Below the pieces are notes generated by a model. It saw only the letters and a list, made by a program, of their open reading frames with translations. It made no database searches and had not been told where the DNA came from. Both the position numbers and the translations under genes were made by a program. This document shows positions 32,744-46,087 of a stretch of 64,000 nucleotides of DNA, piece by piece (position 1 is the stretch's first letter; each line of letters starts with the position of its first letter). This DNA comes from Nitrospira sp. (GTDB lineage: Bacteria > Nitrospirota > Nitrospiria > Nitrospirales > Nitrospiraceae), in assembly GCA_024760545.1 (NCBI GenBank), contig CP060501.1, positions 62,001-126,000 of the forward strand, written 5' to 3'.

Positions 32744-33245
32744 CGGCCGGCGTGTGGGAGTGCGGACGCGGAGAAACCGATCGTCCCCTGAAGATTGGAT
32801 ACAGCTCGCGGTAAGGTTTCTCGCTCGTCGAGACCGTACCGTTGCTCAAGTCGAGCAGTTTCTGGCATCCAAAGGAGCCTCGCCCATTCACATTAGGCAA
32901 GCGGTCCGCCGGTTGTCCGACCTCAAGTATCTCAATGATCAGGTCTATGCCCAACGATGGGTGGACAATCGGTTGGCGTCTCGGCCGGTCGGGCAAGAGC
33001 GGCTGAAGGCGGAATTGCAGGCCAAGGGAATTGCGGAGACTCTGGCAGATCAAGTGGTAGTCCAGGCGTTCCATGAGCATGATGAAGCGACATTGGCTCA
33101 TCGAGTGGTGAAGGGGAAGAACCGTCAGGGCCGAAGATTGACGCGGGTCCAGATCGTGCGCCTCTTACGTCAACGGGGCTTCGGCGAGGAAACGATCGAC
33201 CATATGATCGGGGGGCTCGTCGATCGAGAGGGATCGGATTCATGA
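32721..33245 (+). CDS. recX: RecX, regulator of RecA
   Basis: 174 residues with three tandem three-helix repeats typical of Rec[24 protein letters not shown], then [16 protein letters not shown], then a third ending [11 protein letters not shown]. RecX limits RecA filament growth. The start is set at ATG 32721, overlapping recA by 23 bases; an ATG further inside recA would add a basic tail. The stop overlaps the alaS start (ATGA), so recA, recX and alaS are probably one transcript. Confidence 0.9.
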
Positions 33246-35875
33246 CACAGAGCGCACAGGAACTCAGACAGTCGTTCATTCGCTACTTCGAGCAGCAGGG
33301 GCATCAGGCAGTGCCCAGCTCGGCCTTGCTTCCCCAGGCCGACCCGACGTTATTGTTCACCAACGCCGGCATGAACCAATTCAAGCGGGTCTTCCTCGGA
33401 GAAGACACGCGGCCTTACACGCGGGCCGTGTCCGTGCAAAAATGCCTGCGCGCCGGAGGCAAGCACAATGACCTCGAAAACGTGGGCTACACCAGGCGCC
33501 ACCACACGTTCTTTGAGATGCTGGGCAACTTTTCCTTCGGCGACTACTTCAAGGAAGAGGCGATCCGATTCGGCTGGGAATTTTTGACGCAGACGGTCGG
33601 GCTGGCGAAGGACCGGATGTGGGTGACGGTATTCCGCGAGGATGACGAAGCCGATCGGTTTTGGAGGCAGATCGGTGTGTCGCCGTCACGCATCGTGCGG
33701 TGCGATGAAAAAGATAACTTCTGGCAAATGGCGGACACCGGCCCCTGCGGCCCTTGCTCGGAGATTCATTTCGATCAGGGTCCTGCAGTTCCCGGCGATG
33801 ATGGGCCGAACGGGGCGGGCGATCGCGTGATCGAAATCTGGAACCTCGTCTTCATGCAGTACAACCGGGATGCGTCCGGTACGTTGACTCCTTTGCCGAA
33901 GCCGAGCATCGATACCGGGATGGGCCTCGAACGGCTGACGGCGGTCGCGCAGGGCGTCTTCAGCAATTATGACACCGATCTGTTCACACCGCTGCTGGCG
34001 GCAGTCGCCAGGCGGGCGGGCACCGAGTATGGCGTGAAAGAGACGGCGGATCGCTCCATGCGCGTCATTGCCGACCATCTGCGGGCGATCACTTTTCTCA
34101 TGGCCGACGGCGTGTTGCCGTCGAACGAAGGGCGTGGGTATGTGTTGCGGCGCATTCTGCGCCGCGCCGCGCGGCACGGCAGGCTGCTCGGCATCGTCGA
34201 GCCCTTTCTGCATGAACTCAGCGTGGTCGTCGTCGAGCAGATGACCGGCGCCTATCCGGAAGTGCGCATGGCGGCCGGCACGATCACTGAGGCAACGAGG
34301 GGCGAAGAAGAACGGTTTATCGCGACACTCGATCAGGGGTTACCGATCTTGAACGACATGATCGAAAAGACGCGAGGGGCTAGCCGGACGGCCTTGGCGG
34401 GTGGGGACGTGTTCAAGCTCTACGACACGTATGGATTTCCCATGGACCTGATTACAGAGGCTTGCCGAGAGCAGGGGATGACGGTCGATGAACCAGGCTT
34501 CGATGCGGCGATTGAGGAGCAGCGGACCCGCGCGCGCAAGACCGGCGGGTTTGAGCAGGACACGACTCGCCCGGCGGTGGCCGAGTTGACCAAGCGGATC
34601 GGGGGTACGCAGTTCGTCGGTTATGACCGGTTGGAGAGCGACAGCGTGCTACGCGCGATTCTCAAGGGCGAGCAGTTGGTGAAGGAAGCGGCGGAAGGCG
34701 ACGAAGTCGAAGTCGCGCTGGATGTGACGCCTTTTTATGCCGAAGGCGGTGGACAGGTCGGGGACCGAGGAACATTGGTGGGGCCAGAAGGGCTGGTGGA
34801 TATCACGGATACGACGAGAGCGGCGCCGGCCCTCATCCTTCATAAGGGGACTGTCCGCAAAGGGCGCATCCGGGAAGGCGAACAACTTCGCATGACGGTC
34901 AACCCCTCGACGCGCCAGGACGCCGCGCGCAATCACACGGCCACGCATCTGGTCCATGCGGCTCTGCGCGATCTCCTCGGCCCGCATGTGAAGCAGTACG
35001 GGTCGCTGGTCGGGCCGAACCGGCTCCGGTTCGACTTTGCCCACTTCCGGCCGCTGTCGTCCCGCGACATCGACGACATCGAATCGACGGTGAACGGGGA
35101 AATCCGTAGGAACGAGGCGGTTCGTACCGAGGTCATGAGTATTCAGGACGCGGTGGAGAAAGGGGCCCTGGCATTCTTTGGCGATAAGTATGGCGAGCAG
35201 GTGCGTGTGGTCAGCGTCGAGTCGTTCAGCAAGGAACTTTGCGGCGGCACCCACTGCCGGCAGACGGGCGACATCGGACTTTTCCGCATCGTGTCGGAGG
35301 CAGGCGTCGCCGCCGGCGTGCGTCGGATCGAGGCTCAGACCGGCAGCGGGGCCTATGGGCTCATGAAGAAACTCGAGGCCGATGTCAGAGAACTGTCGGA
35401 GTTGTTGAAGGTGGGACAGTCCGAACTGGCCGCCAAGACCCGTAAACTCCTGGTCCAGCTCAAGGACAAGGAACGGGAGCTGGAAGAAGTGAAGCTCAAG
35501 ATGGCCGGTGGCTCAGCGGCGGCATCGAGCGCCAAAACCATCGCCGGAGTGACGGTCCACGCGCAGCGGACGGACGGGCTGGATGTGAACGGCATGCGGG
35601 CGTTGGCGGATCAGCTTCGGGACAAGCTGAAGAGCGGCGTCATCGCGCTGGGAGCGGCTTCCGGTGACGGAAAGGTTTCATTGCTGGTCGTGGTGACGAA
35701 GGATTTGATCGGCACACTCAAGGCCGGTGAACTCATCAAAGCGATGGCGTTGGAAGTAGGCGGTACCGGCGGTGGCCGCCCGGAAATGGCTCAAGCCGGC
35801 GGGAAGGACCCTGCCAAGCTCGATACGGCGTTGGAAAAAGTTTTTGGCCTAGTCGAAAGCACCCTCCGGCGGTAG
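33242..35875 (+). CDS. alaS: Alanyl-tRNA synthetase
   Basis: 877 residues, standard length. The class II catalytic domain opens with QSFIRYFEQQGH and contains TDPTLLF-like motif TLLFTNAGMNQFK. The editing/SecAD domain carries zinc ligands His565, His569 (HTATH), Cys667 and His671 (CGGTH). The C-terminal C-Ala region begins with a coiled coil and has GGGRPEMAQAGG. It charges tRNA-Ala. It is translationally coupled to recX by a four-base overlap. Confidence 0.98.
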   Translation: MTQSAQELRQSFIRYFEQQGHQAVPSSALLPQADPTLLFTNAGMNQFKRVFLGEDTRPYTRAVSVQKCLRAGGKHNDLENVGYTRRHHTFFEMLGNFSFGDYFKEEAIRFGWEFLTQTVGLAKDRMWVTVFREDDEADRFWRQIGVSPSRIVRCDEKDNFWQMADTGPCGPCSEIHFDQGPAVPGDDGPNGAGDRVIEIWNLVFMQYNRDASGTLTPLPKPSIDTGMGLERLTAVAQGVFSNYDTDLFTPLLAAVARRAGTEYGVKETADRSMRVIADHLRAITFLMADGVLPSNEGRGYVLRRILRRAARHGRLLGIVEPFLHELSVVVVEQMTGAYPEVRMAAGTITEATRGEEERFIATLDQGLPILNDMIEKTRGASRTALAGGDVFKLYDTYGFPMDLITEACREQGMTVDEPGFDAAIEEQRTRARKTGGFEQDTTRPAVAELTKRIGGTQFVGYDRLESDSVLRAILKGEQLVKEAAEGDEVEVALDVTPFYAEGGGQVGDRGTLVGPEGLVDITDTTRAAPALILHKGTVRKGRIREGEQLRMTVNPSTRQDAARNHTATHLVHAALRDLLGPHVKQYGSLVGPNRLRFDFAHFRPLSSRDIDDIESTVNGEIRRNEAVRTEVMSIQDAVEKGALAFFGDKYGEQVRVVSVESFSKELCGGTHCRQTGDIGLFRIVSEAGVAAGVRRIEAQTGSGAYGLMKKLEADVRELSELLKVGQSELAAKTRKLLVQLKDKERELEEVKLKMAGGSAAASSAKTIAGVTVHAQRTDGLDVNGMRALADQLRDKLKSGVIALGAASGDGKVSLLVVVTKDLIGTLKAGELIKAMALEVGGTGGGRPEMAQAGGKDPAKLDTALEKVFGLVESTLRR

Positions 35876-35879
35876 AATC

Positions 35880-36464
35880 ATGCCTGGCCGTATTCTCGCA
35901 CTCGATTACGGGACCAAGCGGATCGGCGTTGCTCTCAGCGACGAGCTGAGATGGACGGCGCAACCGCTCGAAACCTTGGAGCGTCGGACGCTGGACCGTG
36001 ACATCGCCCATATCCAACACTTGGTGAATCTTCACGATGTCCGGGAGGTGCTGATCGGGCTTCCATTGCGCCTCAACGGCGAAGCAGGACCGGCGGCTCA
36101 GGCCGTTCAGGGCTTTGTAATCCGGTTAGGGGAAACGCTCTCAGTCCCGATCGTGACCTGGGACGAGCGCATGACGACGAAAGCAGCGGAAGACTTGTTG
36201 ATCGCTGCCGACGTCAGTCGAAAGAAGCGCAAGGGGGTCGTGGATCGTGTGGCCGCTGCCATACTCTTACAAGGGTATCTTGAGGCACAAACCTCTTCTT
36301 CCGTTCAGAGTGGAACCGACAGTGCAGTTACTGAGACGGGGGAAGAGGAGATAGAGTCGTCTCCGAACGACCAATCTTATGAAGTTGCGCCTGATCTTCA
36401 TCGTAGCCATCACCATCGTCGCTCTCGCCGGGGCGGTCGCTTATCAGATGATTCGATGGGCTGA
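35880..36464 (+). CDS. ruvX: RuvX/YqgF family Holliday junction resolvase-like nuclease
   Basis: 194 residues. The RNase H-like fold shows its acidic residues in ALDYGTKRIGVAL (Asp9) and TWDERMTT, plus KKRKGVVDRVAAAILLQGYL. Family members process Holliday junctions or 16S pre-rRNA 5' ends. It has an unusual ~50-residue acidic, His/Arg-ended extension, and the last 86 bases overlap mltG in another frame. The gene begins four bases after alaS stops. Confidence 0.9.
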   Translation: MPGRILALDYGTKRIGVALSDELRWTAQPLETLERRTLDRDIAHIQHLVNLHDVREVLIGLPLRLNGEAGPAAQAVQGFVIRLGETLSVPIVTWDERMTTKAAEDLLIAADVSRKKRKGVVDRVAAAILLQGYLEAQTSSSVQSGTDSAVTETGEEEIESSPNDQSYEVAPDLHRSHHHRRSRRGGRLSDDSMG

Positions 36465-37461
36465 GGCCCCGGTCCTTTCCGAGTCCGATCATCCTCAGGA
36501 GAAACTCGTGGTGATCGCCGAAGGGACTCCGTTCAACCAAGTCGCGACCTTACTGGAACGGGAGCGGTTGATCAGGAGCCGCTTGGCATTTCTGCTTTTG
36601 GGAAAGTTTCAGGAAGCTGACCGCAAGATTCACCCCGGAGAGTACGAGCTCAATGCCGCCATGCGGCCGGCCGAGATCCTATCCAAGTTCCTTGCCGGTC
36701 GAGTGGTGCTACATGCCGTCACGATTCCCGAAGGGTATACGATCACTCAAATCGCCGATGTGCTGGATGAACAGCGTATTACGAATAGGGCGGAGTTCGT
36801 CAAATTGGCGTCCGACAAGTCCTTCATTGAGACCTTGGGAATTTCTGCGGATACCGTGGAAGGGTATCTGTATCCGGACACGTATCGTTTTGCCAGATCG
36901 ACGGCGGCGAAAGACGTCATCAGAGCGATGATGGATCAACTCGGGCGTGTGATGACCCCGGAGTGGCAGGCACGGGCCAAAGATATCAACATGACGCTGC
37001 ATGAGGTTTTGACGCTGGCCTCAGTCATCGAAAAAGAAACCGGTTCCGGAGACGAGCGGCCTCAGATCTCATCCGTGTTTCACAATCGACTGAAGAAGCG
37101 CATTCCCCTGCAGAGCGATCCGACCGTCATCTACGGGTTGGAGAATTTCGACGGAAACCTTCACAAAAGAGATCTCTCCCATCCCAGCCCCTACAATACC
37201 TACCGTTGGACCGGTTTGCCGCCTGGTCCCATTGCGAGCCCGGGGGCACAATCGATCCGTGCCGCGTTATATCCGACGCCTTCCGCATACCTGTATTTTG
37301 TCTCCAAGAATGATGGGACACACCAGTTTTCCGCCACGCTCGTGGAGCATAATAAGGCCGTGGAGCGATACCAGAAACGGCCTTTTCGGCGAGGAACTCA
37401 TTCCCAAACGTTTGTGGTTCCATGCGATACGAACGTTATTTCCCAGAAAGGAGTAGCCTAG
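36379..37461 (+). CDS. mltG: Endolytic murein transglycosylase MltG
   Basis: 360 residues. One N-terminal membrane anchor (LIFIVAITIVALAGAVAY) leads to a LysM-like region and the YceG catalytic domain with Glu218 in SVIEKET, and the downstream DPTVIYG motif. The enzyme cleaves nascent glycan strands and helps terminate peptidoglycan polymerisation at the inner membrane. It overlaps ruvX by 86 bases and is followed after three bases by deoC. The last ~25 residues are not part of the conserved domain. Confidence 0.93.
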   Translation: MKLRLIFIVAITIVALAGAVAYQMIRWAEAPVLSESDHPQEKLVVIAEGTPFNQVATLLERERLIRSRLAFLLLGKFQEADRKIHPGEYELNAAMRPAEILSKFLAGRVVLHAVTIPEGYTITQIADVLDEQRITNRAEFVKLASDKSFIETLGISADTVEGYLYPDTYRFARSTAAKDVIRAMMDQLGRVMTPEWQARAKDINMTLHEVLTLASVIEKETGSGDERPQISSVFHNRLKKRIPLQSDPTVIYGLENFDGNLHKRDLSHPSPYNTYRWTGLPPGPIASPGAQSIRAALYPTPSAYLYFVSKNDGTHQFSATLVEHNKAVERYQKRPFRRGTHSQTFVVPCDTNVISQKGVA

Positions 37462-37464
37462 AAG

Positions 37465-38136
37465 ATGTCAGCCTGGAATCTTCCGGAACTCATCGATCAC
37501 ACAGTGCTGCGGCCGGATGCCTCGAAGTCCGACATTATCCGGCTCTGTCAGGAGGCAAAGGACAACGGCTTCATGGTCATTTTTGTTCCTCCATGCTACA
37601 TCGATGAGGCGGTTGCGGCCGTGGCCGGCACGAAGATTCGTGTCGGGATTCCGATCGGCTTTCCTTTAGGCGGGCACAGCACGCACACCAAAGTCGCCGA
37701 AGCGATTGAAGCGGTGTCACGCGGTGCCAGGGTATTGGACATGGTCCTGAACGTGAGCCGGCTCAAGTCGGGCGATCACGACTCTGTGCGGAAGGATATT
37801 GCCGAAGTGGTGAAATCGACGCCCGGGGTTGAGCACAAAGTCATACTCGAGACGTGTTATCTGACACAGCAGGAGAAGCGGACCGCCTGTCATTTGGTCG
37901 TGGAAGCCGGGGCGGATTATGTCAAAACCTCGACGGGTTTCGGTGCAGCGGGGGCAACGATCGAAGATGTTCGATTGCTGAAGGAAACCGTCGCAGGGCG
38001 GGCCAAGGTCAAAGCTTCCGGCGGTATTCGAGATTGGAAAACGACCCTCGCGATGCTGGAAGCCGGAGCCGACCGGATCGGCACCAGCGCCAGTCTCTCC
38101 ATCATCCACGAGTGGCGCACGGAGTCCTCCAAGTAG
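37465..38136 (+). CDS. deoC: Deoxyribose-phosphate aldolase
   Basis: 223 residues. It is a class I aldolase with Schiff-base Lys154 (VKTSTGFG), proton-relay Lys183 (VKASGGIR) and Asp92 (LDMVLNV). It cleaves 2-deoxyribose 5-phosphate to acetaldehyde and glyceraldehyde 3-phosphate in nucleoside catabolism. A GAAAGGAG site precedes the ATG. The functional partner deoB follows about 175 bases downstream. Confidence 0.96.
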   Translation: MSAWNLPELIDHTVLRPDASKSDIIRLCQEAKDNGFMVIFVPPCYIDEAVAAVAGTKIRVGIPIGFPLGGHSTHTKVAEAIEAVSRGARVLDMVLNVSRLKSGDHDSVRKDIAEVVKSTPGVEHKVILETCYLTQQEKRTACHLVVEAGADYVKTSTGFGAAGATIEDVRLLKETVAGRAKVKASGGIRDWKTTLAMLEAGADRIGTSASLSIIHEWRTESSK

Positions 38137-38312
38137 GTATCCAAGAAAATCATTGCGGATGACCTCCCTTCAACGTGTGTAATGATCTGTCGCTTCAACG
38201 CACAGCCGTGTTCACTGTGTTCTCTTGGCGATCTGCCGACAGGGTATCCTGCACATTACGGGTTGCGTAGAAGAACCTATGCCGCATCGATCCTATTTGA
38301 TATAGTGCGCGA

Positions 38313-39470
38313 ATGATCAATCGGGTCATTCTTCTCGTCATTGATGGGTTCGGCATAGGCGCATTGCCGGATGCGGGGGCTTACGGCGATGACCAGGCCG
38401 ATACCATCCGCCATTTGGCCGATGCGGTCGGTGGACTGAGTCTGCCCAATCTTGAGTCGCTTGGTCTTGGACATGTTGCGCCTATTAAAGGGGTGCGCTC
38501 CATGGCGCAACCAAGCGGCTGTTTTGGCCGCCTCGGTTTTTCATCGAGGGGGAAAGACTCTGTGGTAGGGCACTGGGAGCTCAGCGGGGTCATTGTGAAC
38601 GATGAGACGACCGTCTGTCGATCGGGTATTCCGGCCGCGATGATGGCAGTGATCGAGAGGATCGTGGGTCGAAAGACGATCGGGAACACCATCGCGTCCA
38701 TGGCTACCGCGTTACGGGAATATGGCCCGTCGCACGTCACCACAAAATCTCCAATCATATGGACCGATGGGGATAATACGTGCTTTCTGGCGGTTCATGA
38801 AACGATGATGTCCACAGCCGACTTACAGCAGCGCTGCCGCGAGATTCGGAAGGCGCTGAAAGATGCCGGAGTGCGGATTCGTGTCGTTGCGCAACCGGTG
38901 ACAGGTGAGCCCGGCGCGCTTCAGGCTTCCAAGGGCCGGAGAGATTTTGTGTCGGAACCATCGGGTTTGACGATGTTGGACGTCCTGAATCGATCAGGCC
39001 AGATTACGATGGGGATTGGGAAAGCCTACGACCTGTTCAGCGGTCGTGGATTTACGAAATCGTTCGCGGTCTATTCCCCCATGGCGGCTTTCGATGAAGT
39101 AATCGGCATGTTGAACAAGGTGCCGCGAGGTCTTCTCTATGCGACGCTCGATCTGTTTCCTGAGGAGCTGACGCGGGCTTCAACGGCATTGGAAGCGTTC
39201 GATCGCCGGTTGCCTGATCTCTTCGAGAAGTTGCGCGTCGGAGACTTGGTGATCGTGACCGGTGATCATGGGCGTGATCTTTCACTCCCGGGGAAGATGC
39301 CGACTCGAGAATATGTGCCCGTGTTCGTGACCAGCCCTAAACTGGCGCAAGGCGTAGACTTAGGAAGTAGACAGACGGCCGCGGATGTGGCGCAGACGGT
39401 GGTCGAGGCGCTTCGAGCCGAACGGTTGCCTGTAGGTGACAGTTTTTTGGATGCCCTTAGGCCGGGATAG
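38313..39470 (+). CDS. deoB: Phosphopentomutase
   Basis: 385 residues of the alkaline phosphatase superfamily. Metal motif VIDGFGIGALPDA at the N-terminus, DSVVGHWELSG in the core and VTGDHGRD near the C-terminus supply the two-metal site. It interconverts ribose or deoxyribose 1- and 5-phosphates, feeding DeoC. It lies downstream of deoC with a 176-base gap in which I see no terminator or promoter of good quality. Confidence 0.95.
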   Translation: MINRVILLVIDGFGIGALPDAGAYGDDQADTIRHLADAVGGLSLPNLESLGLGHVAPIKGVRSMAQPSGCFGRLGFSSRGKDSVVGHWELSGVIVNDETTVCRSGIPAAMMAVIERIVGRKTIGNTIASMATALREYGPSHVTTKSPIIWTDGDNTCFLAVHETMMSTADLQQRCREIRKALKDAGVRIRVVAQPVTGEPGALQASKGRRDFVSEPSGLTMLDVLNRSGQITMGIGKAYDLFSGRGFTKSFAVYSPMAAFDEVIGMLNKVPRGLLYATLDLFPEELTRASTALEAFDRRLPDLFEKLRVGDLVIVTGDHGRDLSLPGKMPTREYVPVFVTSPKLAQGVDLGSRQTAADVAQTVVEALRAERLPVGDSFLDALRPG

Positions 39471-39492
39471 CGAAGAGAGAGAAGGAGAAGCG

Positions 39493-39954
39493 ATGTCCTC
39501 TGAGCAACGATTAAAGCAGTTAGGTCTGGAGCTGCCGGCTCCGCCGAAACCTGTGGCGAACTATGTGCCGGTGGTCAAGAGCGGTAACCTGTTGTTTCTC
39601 TCCGGGGTACTGCCCTCGCGCGACGGCCAGCTCATGATGACCGGCAAGCTTGGGGAAGGCCTCACGGTCGAGCAGGGGATGGAGGCGGCGAAAGCGGCGG
39701 TGTTGAACGGCTTAAGCATTATTCGAAGCGTGACCGGATCACTGGATCAGGTCACACAGATCGTCAAGATGGTCGGCTATATCGCCTCTGCTCCTGGTTT
39801 TGCCGATCAGCCTCAAGTACTCAACGGCGCGTCGGACCTACTTGTATCGGTGTTCGGGGACGCAGGCCGTCACGCGCGCGTCGCCGTCGGTGCCGCGGAA
39901 TTGCCGCGACATGCTCCGGTTGAGATCGAATTGGTCGTCCAAGTCGCTTCCTAA
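39493..39954 (+). CDS. RidA/YjgF family protein, probable enamine/imine deaminase
   Basis: 153 residues. The start at ATG 39493 follows AGAAGGAGAAG and gives the usual length for the longer RidA subfamily. The core NLLFLSGVLPSRDG, the helix GMEAAKAAVLNGLSII and the final ELPRHAPVEIELVVQV match the trimeric fold. Canonical RidA uses an Arg near residue 105 to position the imine; here the equivalent part reads KMVGYIAS, as in the COG0251 subgroup with uncertain substrate. It begins 22 bases after deoB. Confidence 0.88.
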   Translation: MSSEQRLKQLGLELPAPPKPVANYVPVVKSGNLLFLSGVLPSRDGQLMMTGKLGEGLTVEQGMEAAKAAVLNGLSIIRSVTGSLDQVTQIVKMVGYIASAPGFADQPQVLNGASDLLVSVFGDAGRHARVAVGAAELPRHAPVEIELVVQVAS

Positions 39955-40048: not shown

Positions 40049-41773
40049 ATGACCATCATGCGAAACAGATACACGACGATGCTTTTTGTCTGGTTCTCGC
40101 TCCTAACATTGGAAGGAACCGCAGTATCGGCTGCCGCCGGCAAGGCCTCGATAGAATTGTCCTCCCAGTCAGCCACGCTCGGCGCAACAGTGACTCTCAG
40201 TGGAAAATTTGGAAATTTCAAATCCACCCAATTCAACAAAGTGACGTTTAATGGGGTGCCTTCGCTGGTACAGCGATGGGAACCGGACCTCATCGAGGTG
40301 AAGGTCCCATTCAAAGCGACCACAGGTCCTGTGGAAGTGCTGATAGGAAAGAAAAAGTTGCCGGCCGGACTGATGACCATTGTTGCTCCTCGGATTGAAG
40401 CCGTTACACCCGGGGAAGTCGAGCGTGGTGCCACACTTCTGATCACCGGTCACCATTTCGGCCTTTCGGCCGGCGCACGCGATCCCAACACGATGTTCGG
40501 CGTGAATGACGTCACAGTCGGCGGGGTCGTGGTACGGCCGCGCCGATGGAAAGACGACAAGATCGAGCTTGAAATTCCGACGAACGCCGTAAGCGGAGAG
40601 GTGGCCGTTCGGCTGGCCTCGTCTGATCCGCTGCCTGACGGGTCGTGTTGCGCGCCGGTCGAGTATCTCGTGAGCAACGCTGTCCCCCTGACGCTGATCC
40701 CATCCGTACGAGTGGATCCGGTCGCCGGGCCTGTCGGGACGAAAGTCGTGTTGTTCGGCCACGGATTCGGGAATGCAAAAACGTCGAATGATGCCGTGCT
40801 GATCGGTGGGCAGCCGGCGACGATCGCTCAGTGGAAAGAGGACGTCATCGTTCTCCATGTGCCGATCGGCGCCAAATCCGGTCCGCTGACTCTCAAGCAA
40901 GGTGGACGAGAGCGGGTGCTCGCACAATTTACCGTCCATGTTCCCCGAACCACCTCTATAAGTCCGGCGAGCGCTCCCATCGGGACGTTGCTGCGCATCA
41001 ATGGCGAGCACTTTGGGTTTTACTCCGAGAGCGGGTCGACGCCGTACAACTTCATGGATTTCAATACCGGTGAGAATCGAGTCGAAATCGGCGGTGTGCC
41101 GGCGGTCATCTATCGCTGGAACGACGACCGTATCGATGTCTGGGTCCCGTACAGCGCAAAGAGCGGCAAGGTCGTCATTTACCGCAGCGCCAACAAGCCG
41201 AATGCGGAGGGTCTCTGTTGCGCCGAACGGGGAACCGTGGAGATCGAGGCCGGGGAGTTCAGCCTCGTCACGCCGGTCATCGAGTCGTATGATCCGAAGG
41301 CAGCCGGGTTGGATGCTACCGTAACGATAAAGGGAAGCGGGTTCGGGACCTTTCTGAAGACAGCAGAACATGCCGATCTGGGGCTCAACCAGAAGGCCTA
41401 TAAGCGGCGATCCGACATAGAAATCAACGAGCCTGATGAGAATACCACGGTTGTATCGAACGTCTCACGGACTGAAGTCCTGTTCAATGGCACAGCGGCG
41501 GTGGTGCAGTCCTGGACCGATCAAGAAATCGTGGTTAAGGTTCCGCATCGCAATCTTTACGGAATCGGAAAGAAGGGTGAGTTTTTTGATAACCTGGCGA
41601 CCGGTCCGCTGGTCGTTCGCCGGGGGTCGTGGGACGTGCTTTCCGACGGGACCTGCTGCTCGCCGAAGAAATGGCTGACGCTCGAGGCCGGCGAATTCAC
41701 GATCGAAGCGAAGGGCCTTCCTGACACAGGCTACTGGGATAACAACAGACCCGATGCGAGCACCAATCAATAA
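40049..41773 (+). CDS. Secreted IPT/TIG-repeat protein with repeated Cys-Cys motifs
   Basis: 574 residues. A signal peptide (ending VSAAAG) is followed by about five IPT/TIG immunoglobulin-like domains (roughly 30-115, 117-215, 222-305, 307-405, 410-550). Each has the pattern P..G..G..V.I.G..FG and V.V. In three of them an identical-looking loop G-(S/L/T)-CC-(A/S) appears (Cys200-201, 390-391, 536-537). Vicinal cysteines are rare in secreted proteins and could form structural or metal-binding loops. The stop overlaps the start of the propeller gene by one base (TAATG), suggesting joint expression and perhaps a complex. Confidence 0.8.
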   Translation: MTIMRNRYTTMLFVWFSLLTLEGTAVSAAAGKASIELSSQSATLGATVTLSGKFGNFKSTQFNKVTFNGVPSLVQRWEPDLIEVKVPFKATTGPVEVLIGKKKLPAGLMTIVAPRIEAVTPGEVERGATLLITGHHFGLSAGARDPNTMFGVNDVTVGGVVVRPRRWKDDKIELEIPTNAVSGEVAVRLASSDPLPDGSCCAPVEYLVSNAVPLTLIPSVRVDPVAGPVGTKVVLFGHGFGNAKTSNDAVLIGGQPATIAQWKEDVIVLHVPIGAKSGPLTLKQGGRERVLAQFTVHVPRTTSISPASAPIGTLLRINGEHFGFYSESGSTPYNFMDFNTGENRVEIGGVPAVIYRWNDDRIDVWVPYSAKSGKVVIYRSANKPNAEGLCCAERGTVEIEAGEFSLVTPVIESYDPKAAGLDATVTIKGSGFGTFLKTAEHADLGLNQKAYKRRSDIEINEPDENTTVVSNVSRTEVLFNGTAAVVQSWTDQEIVVKVPHRNLYGIGKKGEFFDNLATGPLVVRRGSWDVLSDGTCCSPKKWLTLEAGEFTIEAKGLPDTGYWDNNRPDASTNQ

Positions 41774-42768
41774 TGCGGCTCCGGTTCCATCTCGGTAGTG
41801 TGCATGGGTATCCATCCCTTTCTTCCATTTTCCTCCTCGCCGCGACGCTGACGATTCCTCAAGTAGCCGGGAGCGCAGACTCCAATCTTTTCGTCACGAC
41901 TCAAGCCAGCAACACGAAGTCAACGTTGATGAGTATTCAGTTTCGTACACCACAACATGGTTGGGCTGTGGGGAGCGGGGGGACGATACTGAAGACAACC
42001 GACGGCGGGAAGAAATGGAAGCGAGTGACGAGCGGAACCGCCGCTCTATTGACCTCCGTGTTGTTCATCGACTCATCCAAGGGCTGGGTCACCGGTGCAG
42101 GAGGACTGCTACGATACACGGTGAATGGGGGAGAGTCATGGGGCACACAGTCGCTCGACACTCAACAGCCTTTGTACGGAGTTTATTTCCCATCTCCCAG
42201 TATCGGTTGGGCGGTGGGCGGAGGCGGCACGATTTTACACACGGTCGACGGCGGTGAACATTGGGTTGAGCAAGTAAGCGGTACGACAGCGGCCCTCTAT
42301 GCGGCGCACTTTCTCAATGATCGGAAGGGGACGATCGTCGGCGCGTTGGGGACCGTCCTTTCGACAGACGATGGGGGTACTACTTGGAGACCACAAGCCA
42401 CGCAAGATGCCGTCACGCTTTTTGATGTCTTCTTCACGGATCCTTCGACGGGCTGGGCAGTCGGCAACGCGGGCGCCTTGTTTCAGACGACGGATGGCGG
42501 GGCCAAGTGGGTTGATCAAACCTTGCCGTGCGGTAAGACCTGCACAAAGATCATCGATCTGTTGAAGATTCGATTCGTAAGTCAGCAAGAAGGTTGGATT
42601 GTTGGTGAGCGCGGAATGTTGTACCGGACTACCGACGCCGGCCTCACTTGGAGCGAAGGGAAATCAATTGCCCCTGCCTCGCTCTTCGGTCTCAGTTTCC
42701 CTGATGCCACGCGTGGATGGGCCAGTGGAGAGAACGGGATCATCGTTCAGCTGCGCCTAGGACGCTAG
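41773..42768 (+). CDS. Secreted Ycf48/BNR-type seven-bladed beta-propeller
   Basis: 331 residues with a signal peptide (cleavage near AGS). Seven tandem repeats of the form GWAVG..GTIL.T.DGG..W occur, one per blade, and the last lacks the DGG. This is the photosynthesis-system assembly-factor (Ycf48/HCF136-like) propeller found in many non-photosynthetic bacteria, where it is exported. It is coupled to the IPT/TIG gene upstream. Its role is unknown and probably structural or in assembly at the envelope. Confidence 0.85.
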   Translation: MRLRFHLGSVHGYPSLSSIFLLAATLTIPQVAGSADSNLFVTTQASNTKSTLMSIQFRTPQHGWAVGSGGTILKTTDGGKKWKRVTSGTAALLTSVLFIDSSKGWVTGAGGLLRYTVNGGESWGTQSLDTQQPLYGVYFPSPSIGWAVGGGGTILHTVDGGEHWVEQVSGTTAALYAAHFLNDRKGTIVGALGTVLSTDDGGTTWRPQATQDAVTLFDVFFTDPSTGWAVGNAGALFQTTDGGAKWVDQTLPCGKTCTKIIDLLKIRFVSQQEGWIVGERGMLYRTTDAGLTWSEGKSIAPASLFGLSFPDATRGWASGENGIIVQLRLGR

Positions 42769-42937: not shown

Positions 42938-44176
42938 GTGAACGATTCAGGAATGAACGATCTGTTGTCCAATGTTTGCCCTCTGGCGCGGCAAGCGCCA
43001 AGAGCAGGCTTTTGTATCAAACAAGATCTGCTGATCCTGTTCCTGGGTCTTGTTGCTGTGTGTTTCGCTGGCGATGCAAGAGCGGCGCATGAAGGCCATG
43101 ACGGGAAGCTTGAGGTAGAACGCCATGATCCCTCCGGATCGGGCTATGAGATTTCGGGTCTCTCCTTCCGAGTATTTGTGGATCGAGGCACGGAAGGGGC
43201 GGTCGGTGGATCTCTCGATGAGGCTGGAGCCAATTCGGCTCTCCGGACGGTCATCGAGACCTTCGCCTATCTCAATCAGCGTCGACACAACTATCCACGA
43301 TTCGACGAAGCGGTGAGCAGAGGCTTGCTCGATCGTGTCATCATTCAACCGAGTGTGCGCAATCATGAGGGAAGATCCTTTCCTTTTCTGGTTGTGCGAA
43401 CAGTGGAGCCTGGTCGGGTCAGACTGTTGGTCAGTGCCTCGTCCATGAAAGAAGGAGGGTTCCTCGGAGCGGCTGAACAGTTTGCGCCGGTGGTGGCGCG
43501 AGAGTTTCAATGGGTGGTCAGTAAGGCAGATACCGCTCAGAAGCCGAAGTCCGCCTTCATCGAACGAGATCTCCCGCATGCACCTATTGGGACAGACCAG
43601 AACATCAAGATACTCTCCGGTGAAGAACGGGTACGGCTACTGCAGCGGCTCTTCGAGACATACTTGCGGACGGTAGACGATTTGCGGAGTCTGGAGGGGC
43701 AGCCTTACTACGAGATCGGCAGCACCGCCTTGGTTGCTCCAAGTCAGCCGGACTCCACGGCGAGGTTCTACGATATCCGGATTCGCGAAGCCCTGCAGAA
43801 GATCGTGCGTGACCCCTTATTTTTGGATCGCACGCCATTGGCCGTGACGAGCCTCCTGAACGGAACGATCTGGAATGTGGCGTTCGTCAAGATCGATCAG
43901 CGCGATTGGGCCACCAGGACCAGAGTGTTGCCTGCTGATAAGGCCGTGAAGGTTGGGGAATCCGGACGGGTGATTCAACCTGCAGCGGTCCTGGTCAATC
44001 TCCATAGAGCGGCGGCGCCGGACGACCTCTATTATGCCGACACGAAGCAGCTCCCGATGGGCGCGCTGTCCACCGACCAATTGGCGCTCGTCATTGCCAA
44101 GGAGATCCAGCAGAACATCGTGGAGAAATCACAGACCGGTCATGTCGCTCAAGATGCGCTCACCGCACCACAATAG
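42938..44176 (+). CDS. Secreted hypothetical protein
   Basis: 412 residues if started at the GTG. An ATG five codons later, preceded by TCAGGA, is equally likely. A hydrophobic segment (LLILFLGLVAVCF, cleavage after ARA) predicts export. The mature protein opens HEGHDGKLEVE and is mixed alpha/beta with several Tyr- and Arg-rich stretches. I recognise no family. The next gene is separated by about 260 bases. Confidence 0.6.
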   Translation: MNDSGMNDLLSNVCPLARQAPRAGFCIKQDLLILFLGLVAVCFAGDARAAHEGHDGKLEVERHDPSGSGYEISGLSFRVFVDRGTEGAVGGSLDEAGANSALRTVIETFAYLNQRRHNYPRFDEAVSRGLLDRVIIQPSVRNHEGRSFPFLVVRTVEPGRVRLLVSASSMKEGGFLGAAEQFAPVVAREFQWVVSKADTAQKPKSAFIERDLPHAPIGTDQNIKILSGEERVRLLQRLFETYLRTVDDLRSLEGQPYYEIGSTALVAPSQPDSTARFYDIRIREALQKIVRDPLFLDRTPLAVTSLLNGTIWNVAFVKIDQRDWATRTRVLPADKAVKVGESGRVIQPAAVLVNLHRAAAPDDLYYADTKQLPMGALSTDQLALVIAKEIQQNIVEKSQTGHVAQDALTAPQ

Positions 44177-44440: not shown

Positions 44441-46087
44441 GTGTCTGACGTGACAAGGATGGTTCGGCACTTTCGCCAGATCCTGCTCTGGCCGATGCAA
44501 TTGACACCCATCCGTGAGGATGCGCCGATCCAAAAACACTGGGAGCTGTTGCAGGCCACCGATTCGGGCAATCCCTGGCGAGAGGTGGTTGATGAATTCA
44601 CCGGCGATCCCCGCCAGTTTCAGGAACGACATTACAGCGAGTTCGTGACATTCCTGCCCTATGTGCAGCGATTCCTATACGGAGAGGGTAAGGGGACCAG
44701 CTTTGATGTGCATGAGGAGTCGGCGATCCGGGTCTTTCGTCGAGATGACGTCGCCAAGGTGCGGATGACATTTCCCGGTTCCGATGCGGCGCCCGAGACC
44801 TTTACCGTGGCGCACGTGGACCTGTATTTTTTTTACGATATCGATGTGGCGATCCTGGTGGTGGAGATCTACGCCGACGATCTGCCGTTGTCGCGGGTCC
44901 AGAACTCGCTCTTTCGCTTCGGCCGGTGTTATCCCACCTATTGGGAGCCGGATGGGCATGGCGGTCATTGCCCGAAGCACGTGGAATGGCTCTCCTCGGA
45001 CGGCAAGGTGCTCGCGGTCTCGGACTATGATGACCGAGAAAAATACCTTTCCTTCGTGTGCCGGCATCGCTCGCTCAGTCTGGCCTCTCATTGGGAATTT
45101 CTGCTCGAACCGCTGGTGCTTCACCATTCGGAGAAAAAGGGCCTGATTCGGTATCGACAGATCGAATACCATCTGATGCCGGTGATGGCCTATCTCACCA
45201 TGGACGACCCGGGGGCGCTGACGAGAGCGGAGTTCACACGAGTGGGATTGGCCGCGGCCCCTGGCCGATCCGACGTGTTGCCCTTTTCAGAACGCTATCT
45301 CCACGACTTCGAGGAGCGACATTGTTACGATCGTTATTGGAACGGGCAGGGGAAGGATTCGTCGGGCGCCCGCTTCATGTGCACCGGCCGCGTGTTTACG
45401 ATGGTGGGGGAGTCCGGAGAGCCGGCATTTGAGGACCGTAAGACCAATCTTGAGCAGTTCCGCCATGAATATTTTCTGCTGTTCCTGATCCCGCATTTTC
45501 ACAAGGCCGCGCTCTTGATGCTGACGAATCGTCTGGTGGAGGCGATGAATCAGCTCGACATCACGAAGCTCGATTCGGTTCGGCAGTTCCGCCGCGTGAT
45601 TCGCCAAACGTTGGGCATTTTTTTGCGGTTCACCCATCGCTACTGGTCCCACCAAGTTTCGGATCACGGGCAAGTGAAGGAACTGTATCGTATGATCAGC
45701 GAGCATCTGGGCACCGATCGGCTGTATGCCGAACTCCGATCGGAGCTTGAGGATATGAGCCAGTACCTCGACAGCGATGCGTTGCGCCGGCAAGGCGAGA
45801 CGATGGTGCGCCTGACCGTCGTGGCCACGGTCGGATTGATCGGTGTGGCGACGACCGGTGTGCTCGGTATGAACCTGTTTGCGCTCGGAGAAGAGCCGCC
45901 CATGCTGCGGCTCGGGTATTTTTTGCTGGTCCTGATTCCCGTCATCGGCGTGACGCTGTATACCGTGCTGAAGTCGAGACGGCTGTCGGATTTTCTGGAG
46001 ACCCTTGCCGCGGAGCATCGGTCGTCCAGAGAGAAGTTGGCGGCCGTGCTGGCAGTGTGGAAGACCAAACACGGACGGGATTCCTAA
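44441..46087 (+). CDS. CorA-like membrane protein with GMN motif and large cytoplasmic domain
   Basis: 548 residues from a GTG with AGAGGGG upstream. Residues 1-440 form a soluble domain. The C-terminal part carries a long helix and two membrane segments (about 459-480 and 492-512). The first ends in G476-M477-N478, the CorA selectivity signature for Mg2+ or divalent metals. CorA proteins are typically about 320 residues, so this one has an enlarged cytoplasmic region with many Tyr, Phe and His residues. Probable divalent cation channel; the substrate is not determined. Convergent with the hydrolase gene that follows. Confidence 0.72.
   Translation: MSDVTRMVRHFRQILLWPMQLTPIREDAPIQKHWELLQATDSGNPWREVVDEFTGDPRQFQERHYSEFVTFLPYVQRFLYGEGKGTSFDVHEESAIRVFRRDDVAKVRMTFPGSDAAPETFTVAHVDLYFFYDIDVAILVVEIYADDLPLSRVQNSLFRFGRCYPTYWEPDGHGGHCPKHVEWLSSDGKVLAVSDYDDREKYLSFVCRHRSLSLASHWEFLLEPLVLHHSEKKGLIRYRQIEYHLMPVMAYLTMDDPGALTRAEFTRVGLAAAPGRSDVLPFSERYLHDFEERHCYDRYWNGQGKDSSGARFMCTGRVFTMVGESGEPAFEDRKTNLEQFRHEYFLLFLIPHFHKAALLMLTNRLVEAMNQLDITKLDSVRQFRRVIRQTLGIFLRFTHRYWSHQVSDHGQVKELYRMISEHLGTDRLYAELRSELEDMSQYLDSDALRRQGETMVRLTVVATVGLIGVATTGVLGMNLFALGEEPPMLRLGYFLLVLIPVIGVTLYTVLKSRRLSDFLETLAAEHRSSREKLAAVLAVWKTKHGRDS

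Follow-up and report, generated by a model that had tools for sequence, protein, structure and literature searches.

Ycf48 and HCF136 help to assemble photosystem II, a redox complex in the membrane, and plexins and Met carry a seven-bladed sema propeller head joined to an IPT stalk. The C-loop of the nicotinic acetylcholine receptor is a vicinal-disulfide hairpin. Elements reminiscent of all of these meet in one locus of Nitrospira sp. (assembly GCA_024760545.1, contig CP060501.1), which we analyzed within a stretch of 64,000 nucleotides (positions 62,001-126,000 of the forward strand; hereafter the window). There, two coupled open reading frames, ORF1 and ORF2, encode a five-domain IPT/TIG protein with three adjacent-cysteine (CC) hairpins and a separate seven-bladed propeller. 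The domains are of known kinds; their clade-specific arrangement is new, and the invariant cysteine pattern is unusual. No description of the pair was found in the literature searched. The only paper found to name both Nitrospira and Ycf48 deals, in the part available to us, with Ycf48 of Ignavibacteria, Flavobacteriales and Saprospiraceae.

The assignment of ORF1 to the IPT/TIG proteins is firm. PF01833 (TIG) matches it with an E value of 2.2e-34 and 117.7 bits against a gathering cut-off of 20.9, the stretches numbering five at E<=1 and four at E<=0.001, and all 38 members of the ORF1 alignment A1, with identities to the window protein down to 40%, match the same family at E<=0.001. The predicted model (predicted local distance difference test, pLDDT, 81.9; predicted template-modeling score, pTM, 0.65) presents five immunoglobulin (Ig)-like domains after an N-terminal hydrophobic helix at residues 8-23. 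Profile comparison sorts these domains into two types. Domains 2, 4 and 5 (type B) align with one another, CC on CC, over 104-109 columns with E values of 8e-28, 6e-23 and 4e-22. The CC-less domains 1 and 3 (type A) match at 9e-24 over 77 columns; domain 1 also matches domain 4 (1e-23 over 70 columns), and type A is set apart less sharply than type B. This comparison suggests a rod of order A-B-A-B-B with three equivalent hairpins.

The CC pairs, at residues 200, 390 and 536 and each in a G-x-CC context, had been pointed out in the preliminary description and are confirmed in the translation. Each pair lies between the final two strands of its domain, in loops that span residues 192-204, 384-392 and 528-540 of the model (block-mean pLDDT 75 to 89). 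Their conservation was followed in 67 proteins from three families of the order, which remained from 83 loci after removal of 16 (duplicates, fragments and loci with no full-length ORF1). Cysteines 200, 201, 390, 391, 536 and 537 are present in 67 of 67, and from residue 32 onward no further cysteine occurs in any of them. The ten second copies in the alignment (L035-L044) retain all CC pairs as well. Since closely related sequences are included, these are not 67 independent tests; even so, six cysteines kept and no others from residue 32 in every protein argue that the pattern is beyond chance. G-x-CC is found in 67, 67 and 63 of the 67 for loops 1, 2 and 3, and the narrower consensus DG[ST]CC in 63, 39 and 47. 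In an oxidizing envelope, adjacent cysteines at a hairpin tip would probably form a vicinal disulfide. The receptor C-loop likewise is a beta-hairpin on a beta-sandwich domain with two neighboring cysteines at its tip, but the resemblance is an analogy of working only. Other invariant residues were sought in the same 67 sequences. Four aspartates and one glutamate are invariant, so a hard metal such as calcium may be bound by ORF1. No histidine or methionine is, and no extra conserved cysteine, histidine or methionine stands beside the CC pairs as a ligand for a soft metal.

ORF2 is the propeller of the pair. It matches PF14870 (PSII_BNR) with an E value of 8.8e-41 and 140.5 bits, well above the gathering cut-off of 27, and among solved structures its nearest relatives by sequence are Ycf48 (E 3.5e-38) and HCF136 (5.2e-31). 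The Ycf48 equivalog model NF010237 gives 142.9 bits, below its cut-off of 326; all 33 members of the ORF2 set A2 match that model at E<=0.001. The AlphaFold2 model is of high quality (pLDDT 90.1, pTM 0.84), and its strand list reads as seven blades, with the ring closed by the strand at residues 39-44. The IPT/TIG protein and propeller that had been proposed for the locus are thus both borne out. Fold comparison listed 50 chains with Z scores of 30.8-32.9 over 277-295 residues (root-mean-square deviation, rmsd, 2.1-3.0 Å). The best among the matches listed is a seven-bladed designed propeller; the WD40 and lyase chains among them are seven-bladed too. ORF2 resembles Ycf48 and HCF136 in family, in sequence and in blade number, but differs from them in falling below the equivalog cut-off, in its Nitrospira host and in its coupling to an IPT rod. 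Its own cysteine motif, CxxxC, is present in 53 of 57 relatives and gapped in four, whose ORF1 partners keep all CC pairs; therefore the motif is not tied to the CC pairs of ORF1.

The coupling of the genes begins with a shared base. The last base of the ORF1 stop codon TAA (41771-41773) is the A of the ORF2 ATG, as the one-base overlap noticed earlier required, and the same overlap repeats in six of six same-genus loci. Farther from the genus the two genes either overlap or are separated by up to 213 bases, with starts estimated. In all 30 loci of the set L001-L030, ORF2 is the next gene after ORF1. In 29 chosen genomes ORF1 was found in 25, with the pair adjacent in 22 and on different contigs in three (G054, G189 and G227). 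A two-peptide scan returned 192 relatives, and the best 80 of them, with 8-kb flanks, make up the named loci. ORF2 adjoins ORF1 in 69 of these 80; two are cut by contig edges (L107 and L141), and the other nine hold an ORF1 copy that lacks ORF2 beside it. All 69 named loci that could be measured have the open frame of ORF2 within 326 bases of ORF1, counted to the frame and not to a start codon. By the same measure the junction from ridA, the gene upstream, to ORF1 exceeds 600 bases in 14 of 64: the junction upstream of the pair is often widened, the pair itself is not.

Frequent occurrence of either gene alone had been named in the preliminary description as the observation that would speak against a two-component assembly. 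ORF1 does stand without a neighboring propeller in the nine loci just mentioned, but as an extra copy, which makes the outcome mixed. For eight of the nine genomes, contig names, lengths or coordinates linked the extra copy to a main one that has ORF2 at its side; the ninth (L113, which shares its start with G145:C471) has two ORF1 matches, with an ORF2 ortholog on another contig. Of the exported two-component assembly proposed there, a co-inherited two-gene unit is well supported, and export is suggested by the N-terminal hydrophobic helices of both proteins, which look fit for a Sec signal on direct reading; that of ORF2 spans residues 17-27 of its model.

The range of the pair is close to that of the order. 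The named relatives belong to Nitrospira, Nitrospiraceae, Nitrospirae or Nitrospirota, with one Nitrosospira; they include the complete N. moscoviensis chromosome, and Nitrospira sp. BO4, at 99%, comes closest. For the genomic survey we used 235 genomes of the order (153 of them good) in families f1, f2, f3 and f4, of which f1 has 175 (114 good). ORF1, counted in f1 at E<=0.001 with fragments included, is present in 161 of the 175 f1 genomes and 111 of the 114 good ones, and across the order in 212 of 235 and 148 of 153. By family, tallied from the order-wide survey, it occurs in 161/175 (f1), 7/8 (f2), 0/4 (f3) and 44/48 (f4). Five good genomes lack it: two from family f3, plus G076, G166 and G174. 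For G076 and G174 there is no ridA match either, so the whole block is missing or unassembled there, and in G166 the contig ends soon after the ridA region; G054, counted as a match, holds only an ORF1 fragment at a contig end. In a phylum sample of 395 genomes, 140 match ORF1 at 1e-20, of which only three lie outside the order. Those three are weak matches to ordinary TIG proteins, without CC loops in the parts read.

Family f3 deserves closer attention. In its four genomes alaS, ruvX, mltG and ridA lie close together and the ORF1-ORF2 pair is absent there. A search for ORF2 in two f3 genomes returned weaker, partial propeller matches of 38-40% identity on contigs other than that of ridA. Near ridA, where the other families carry the pair, the loci L177, L178 and L179 have a molybdopterin oxidoreductase of the sulfite-oxidase type (PF00174 tested in L177 alone) and a small CxxCH-containing gene; in the fourth genome the contig stretch ends first. 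In a tree of AlaS, f3 is sister to f1, f2 and f4 together, with support of 91/83 and on a long branch; three of the eight f2 genomes were used, and the root was drawn at the midpoint with the outgroups on the other side.

We compared this distribution with that of a putative NxrB of 429 residues, present in two copies in the genome of the window and searched at a threshold of 1e-60. Matches were tallied in 142 of the 235 genomes of the order (f1 107/175, f2 6/8, f4 29/48); f3, with four genomes, contributes none. The available part of PMC12342949 describes UBA2166 as the only Nitrospirales clade without nitrite oxidoreductase (NXR), and NS-4 as the deepest NXR-bearing one; it gives 140 genes as diagnostic of nitrite oxidation or of NXR-bearing Nitrospirales, and reports sulfite-oxidase-type enzymes for UBA2166. 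Family f3 would correspond to UBA2166, f2 to NS-4 and f4 to UBA8639, the first of which fits because the enzymes reported for UBA2166 match the f3 locus. The distribution of the pair fits that of the 140 diagnostic genes, and the pair may be among them.

The reading that we favor, tentatively and at a little below even probability, is that the two genes make an exported rod-propeller complex, an accessory (assembly or scaffold) factor of periplasmic machinery in nitrite-oxidizing Nitrospirales. The five Ig-like domains would form the rod and the propeller a separate subunit. A vicinal disulfide in each type B hairpin would stiffen a contact site in the oxidizing envelope, and the three equivalent rigid sites would make the rod trivalent for partner proteins or ligands. 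The pair would then act as Ycf48 and HCF136 do for photosystem II. Rod and propeller would be a natural partnership, because TIG domains are fused to RCC1- or Kelch-type repeats in the same class: L218 (G368) and L220 (G429) carry TIG domains and propeller-type repeats in a single chain. These differ from the pair in the repeats themselves (RCC1-type in L218, Kelch-type in L220) and in the lack of comparable CC hairpins over the parts that were read, the L220 frame being cut.

Several points weigh against this reading. The identity of the NxrB query is our assumption, and the narH model gives it 115 bits, below the cut-off; NxrB misses are common (93 of 235 genomes). The link with nitrite is one branch of a tree and so one event, which suggests function and does not prove it. 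The pair lies at 0.10 Mb of the contig, and the nxrB copies at 2.27 and 4.09 Mb. Extra ORF1 copies occur without a neighboring propeller gene, no Ycf48 chain is among the 50 structural matches listed for ORF2, and beyond the phylum the coverage is that of the two-peptide scan, the best 80 of 192 relatives. A family's absence from a fold list is given no weight of its own. Multi-copy nxr genes assemble badly, according to the portion of PMC12342949 at hand, so many NxrB misses are to be expected and the four f3 misses alone are weak.

The strongest rival, which we hold to be rather unlikely, is a general envelope or cell-surface pair that serves as a spacer or as part of the cell wall or matrix and is not specially tied to nitrite oxidation. 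It draws on the match between the IPT rod and the stalks of plexins and Met and other surface proteins. The IPT array aligns to plexins and Met with Z scores of 13.8-14.0, over 156 residues at 2.9 Å for Met and 266 at 6.0 Å for plexin A1, and bacterial surface Ig arrays also resemble it. In the plexins and Met, however, head and stalk are one chain, here they are two genes, and the propeller is of another family; the CC hairpins have no counterpart known to us in those proteins. The neighbors of the pair look like housekeeping genes, which suits this rival, as does the wide periplasmic space named in a figure legend, the part of PMC4070959 available to us. It leaves unexplained why the pair is absent from the sole family without NXR matches (itself a single-event argument) and why three hairpins are invariant.

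A narrower form of the favored reading, which we consider distinctly unlikely, would make the pair a periplasmic scaffold or assembly complex dedicated to NXR and gained once as the Nitrospirales became nitrite oxidizers, with the rod docking clients through its hairpins and the propeller as a chaperone head. Improbable too is a surface glycan- or matrix-binding protein in the style of SusE or SGBP-B, whose hairpins and insertion loops would be sugar sites and whose propeller would be a second head. The structural matches of ORF1 include surface glycan-binding proteins (Z 9.1 to 10.5), but at an rmsd of 7.8 to 10.3 Å, and the fusions of TIG arrays with propeller repeats in the class suit this reading as well; near-universal presence at a fixed main locus is unlike the variable adhesins. 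A metal-handling complex, thought plausible at first, in which each vicinal dithiol would bind a soft metal such as copper with the propeller as acceptor or scaffold, is very improbable: the three invariant CC pairs, the CxxxC of 53/57 ORF2 proteins and a CorA-like gene 1.7 kb downstream of the pair in the window species speak for it, but ORF1 has no invariant histidine or methionine, its hairpins sit on three different Ig-like domains, the CxxxC is lost in four proteins with intact CC partners, the CorA-like gene recurs only in L084 among the 80 named loci, and no recurring metal transporter was recognized by eye among the shared neighbors.

Table 1 Features of the ORF1-ORF2 locus, in positions of the window
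Feature	Position	Strand	Basis
Upstream block alaS-ruvX-mltG-deoC-deoB-ridA, syntenic in many named Nitrospira loci	33242..39954	+	ridA Pfam-checked
ORF1, IPT/TIG protein, N-terminal hydrophobic helix, 574 aa	40049..41773	+	Pfam, AlphaFold2 model, relatives
TIG domain 1, type A, no CC, residues 32-111	40142..40381	+	Model and profile comparison; boundaries set by analyst
TIG domain 2, type B, CC hairpin, residues 112-217	40382..40699	+	Model and profile comparison
Cys200-Cys201 codons, first hairpin tip, LPDGSCCAP	40646..40651	+	Kept in 67/67
TIG domain 3, type A, no CC, residues 218-296	40700..40936	+	Model and profile comparison
TIG domain 4, type B, CC hairpin, residues 297-407	40937..41269	+	Model and profile comparison
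Cys390-Cys391 codons, second hairpin tip, NAEGLCCAE	41216..41221	+	Kept in 67/67
TIG domain 5, type B, CC hairpin, long low-confidence insertion, residues 408-554	41270..41710	+	Model and profile comparison
Cys536-Cys537 codons, third hairpin tip, LSDGTCCSP	41654..41659	+	Kept in 67/67
ORF2, Ycf48-type (PF14870) propeller, N-terminal hydrophobic helix, 331 aa	41773..42768	+	Pfam, AlphaFold2 model, fold matches
CxxxC (Cys253, Cys257), propeller insertion before blade 6, low-confidence loop	42529..42543	+	53/57 relatives

The pair has a fixed main locus. Apart from ridA, the genes of the upstream block carry names that we assigned from their sequences. Downstream, a convergent group that we take to be rsmE, dnaJ, dnaK and grpE is seen in 42, 34, 31 and 23 of the 80 named loci, counts limited by the 8-kb flanks and by contig ends. 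In one f2 genome (L182) and two f4 genomes (L184 and L185), the pair has ridA on one side and the rsmE-like gene on the other; in a third f4 genome (L183) the downstream genes are present, with no ridA within the stretch examined. A scan for promoters and terminators gave no more than shuffled sequences give. In the window, the pair is followed by ORF3 (42938-44176), a 412-residue protein with no Pfam match at E<=0.01, and by the CorA-like protein (44441-46087), which is below the Pfam cut-off. ORF3, the CorA-like gene and an esterase were considered as partners and set aside, as they occur within 8 kb only in the window and its near-twin L084.

The extra ORF1 copies without a propeller gene are those of L035-L044, L112, L113, L118, L125, L129, L138-L140 and L143. 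A gene that is presumably Sua5-like recurs near the copies in L112, L129 and L138, and a phosphodiesterase-like gene is found in two of these three loci (Pfam tested in one). Three of the second copies have one in-frame TGA, for which selenocysteine was considered and rejected: the codon is an ordinary stop after the C-terminal NRPD.

In N. moscoviensis, a gene for a small exported protein (L227:9946-10350) stands some 9 kb upstream of ORF1 and ORF2; the protein is a possible third partner. It has relatives in L122, L130, L131, L132, L134, L136, L137 and L154, and in six of these eight loci the matching stretch begins at a distance of 214 to 250 bases on the downstream side of ORF2. By rough gene counting this is probably NITMOv2_2496, which the accessible part of PMC6606698 describes as an exported protein of unassigned function whose gene ranks with the most strongly expressed in N. 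moscoviensis. The count rests on a home-made gene model and assumes that a ferritin gene (Pfam 1e-27) is NITMOv2_2541 and that tags rise along the contig. An identity of NITMOv2_2496 with ORF1 was rejected on the same rough count, which puts that tag about ten genes away, probably on the 135-residue exported protein.

Nitrite oxidation by Nitrospira is a main step of the nitrogen cycle, and to our knowledge the assembly of its periplasmic machinery is poorly known. The ORF1-ORF2 pair is a near-universal, locus-stable feature of the lineage, and its triple vicinal-cysteine pattern gives a sharp experimental handle. ORF2 is an example of a propeller of the Ycf48 type with a possible role beyond photosynthesis and a named partner.

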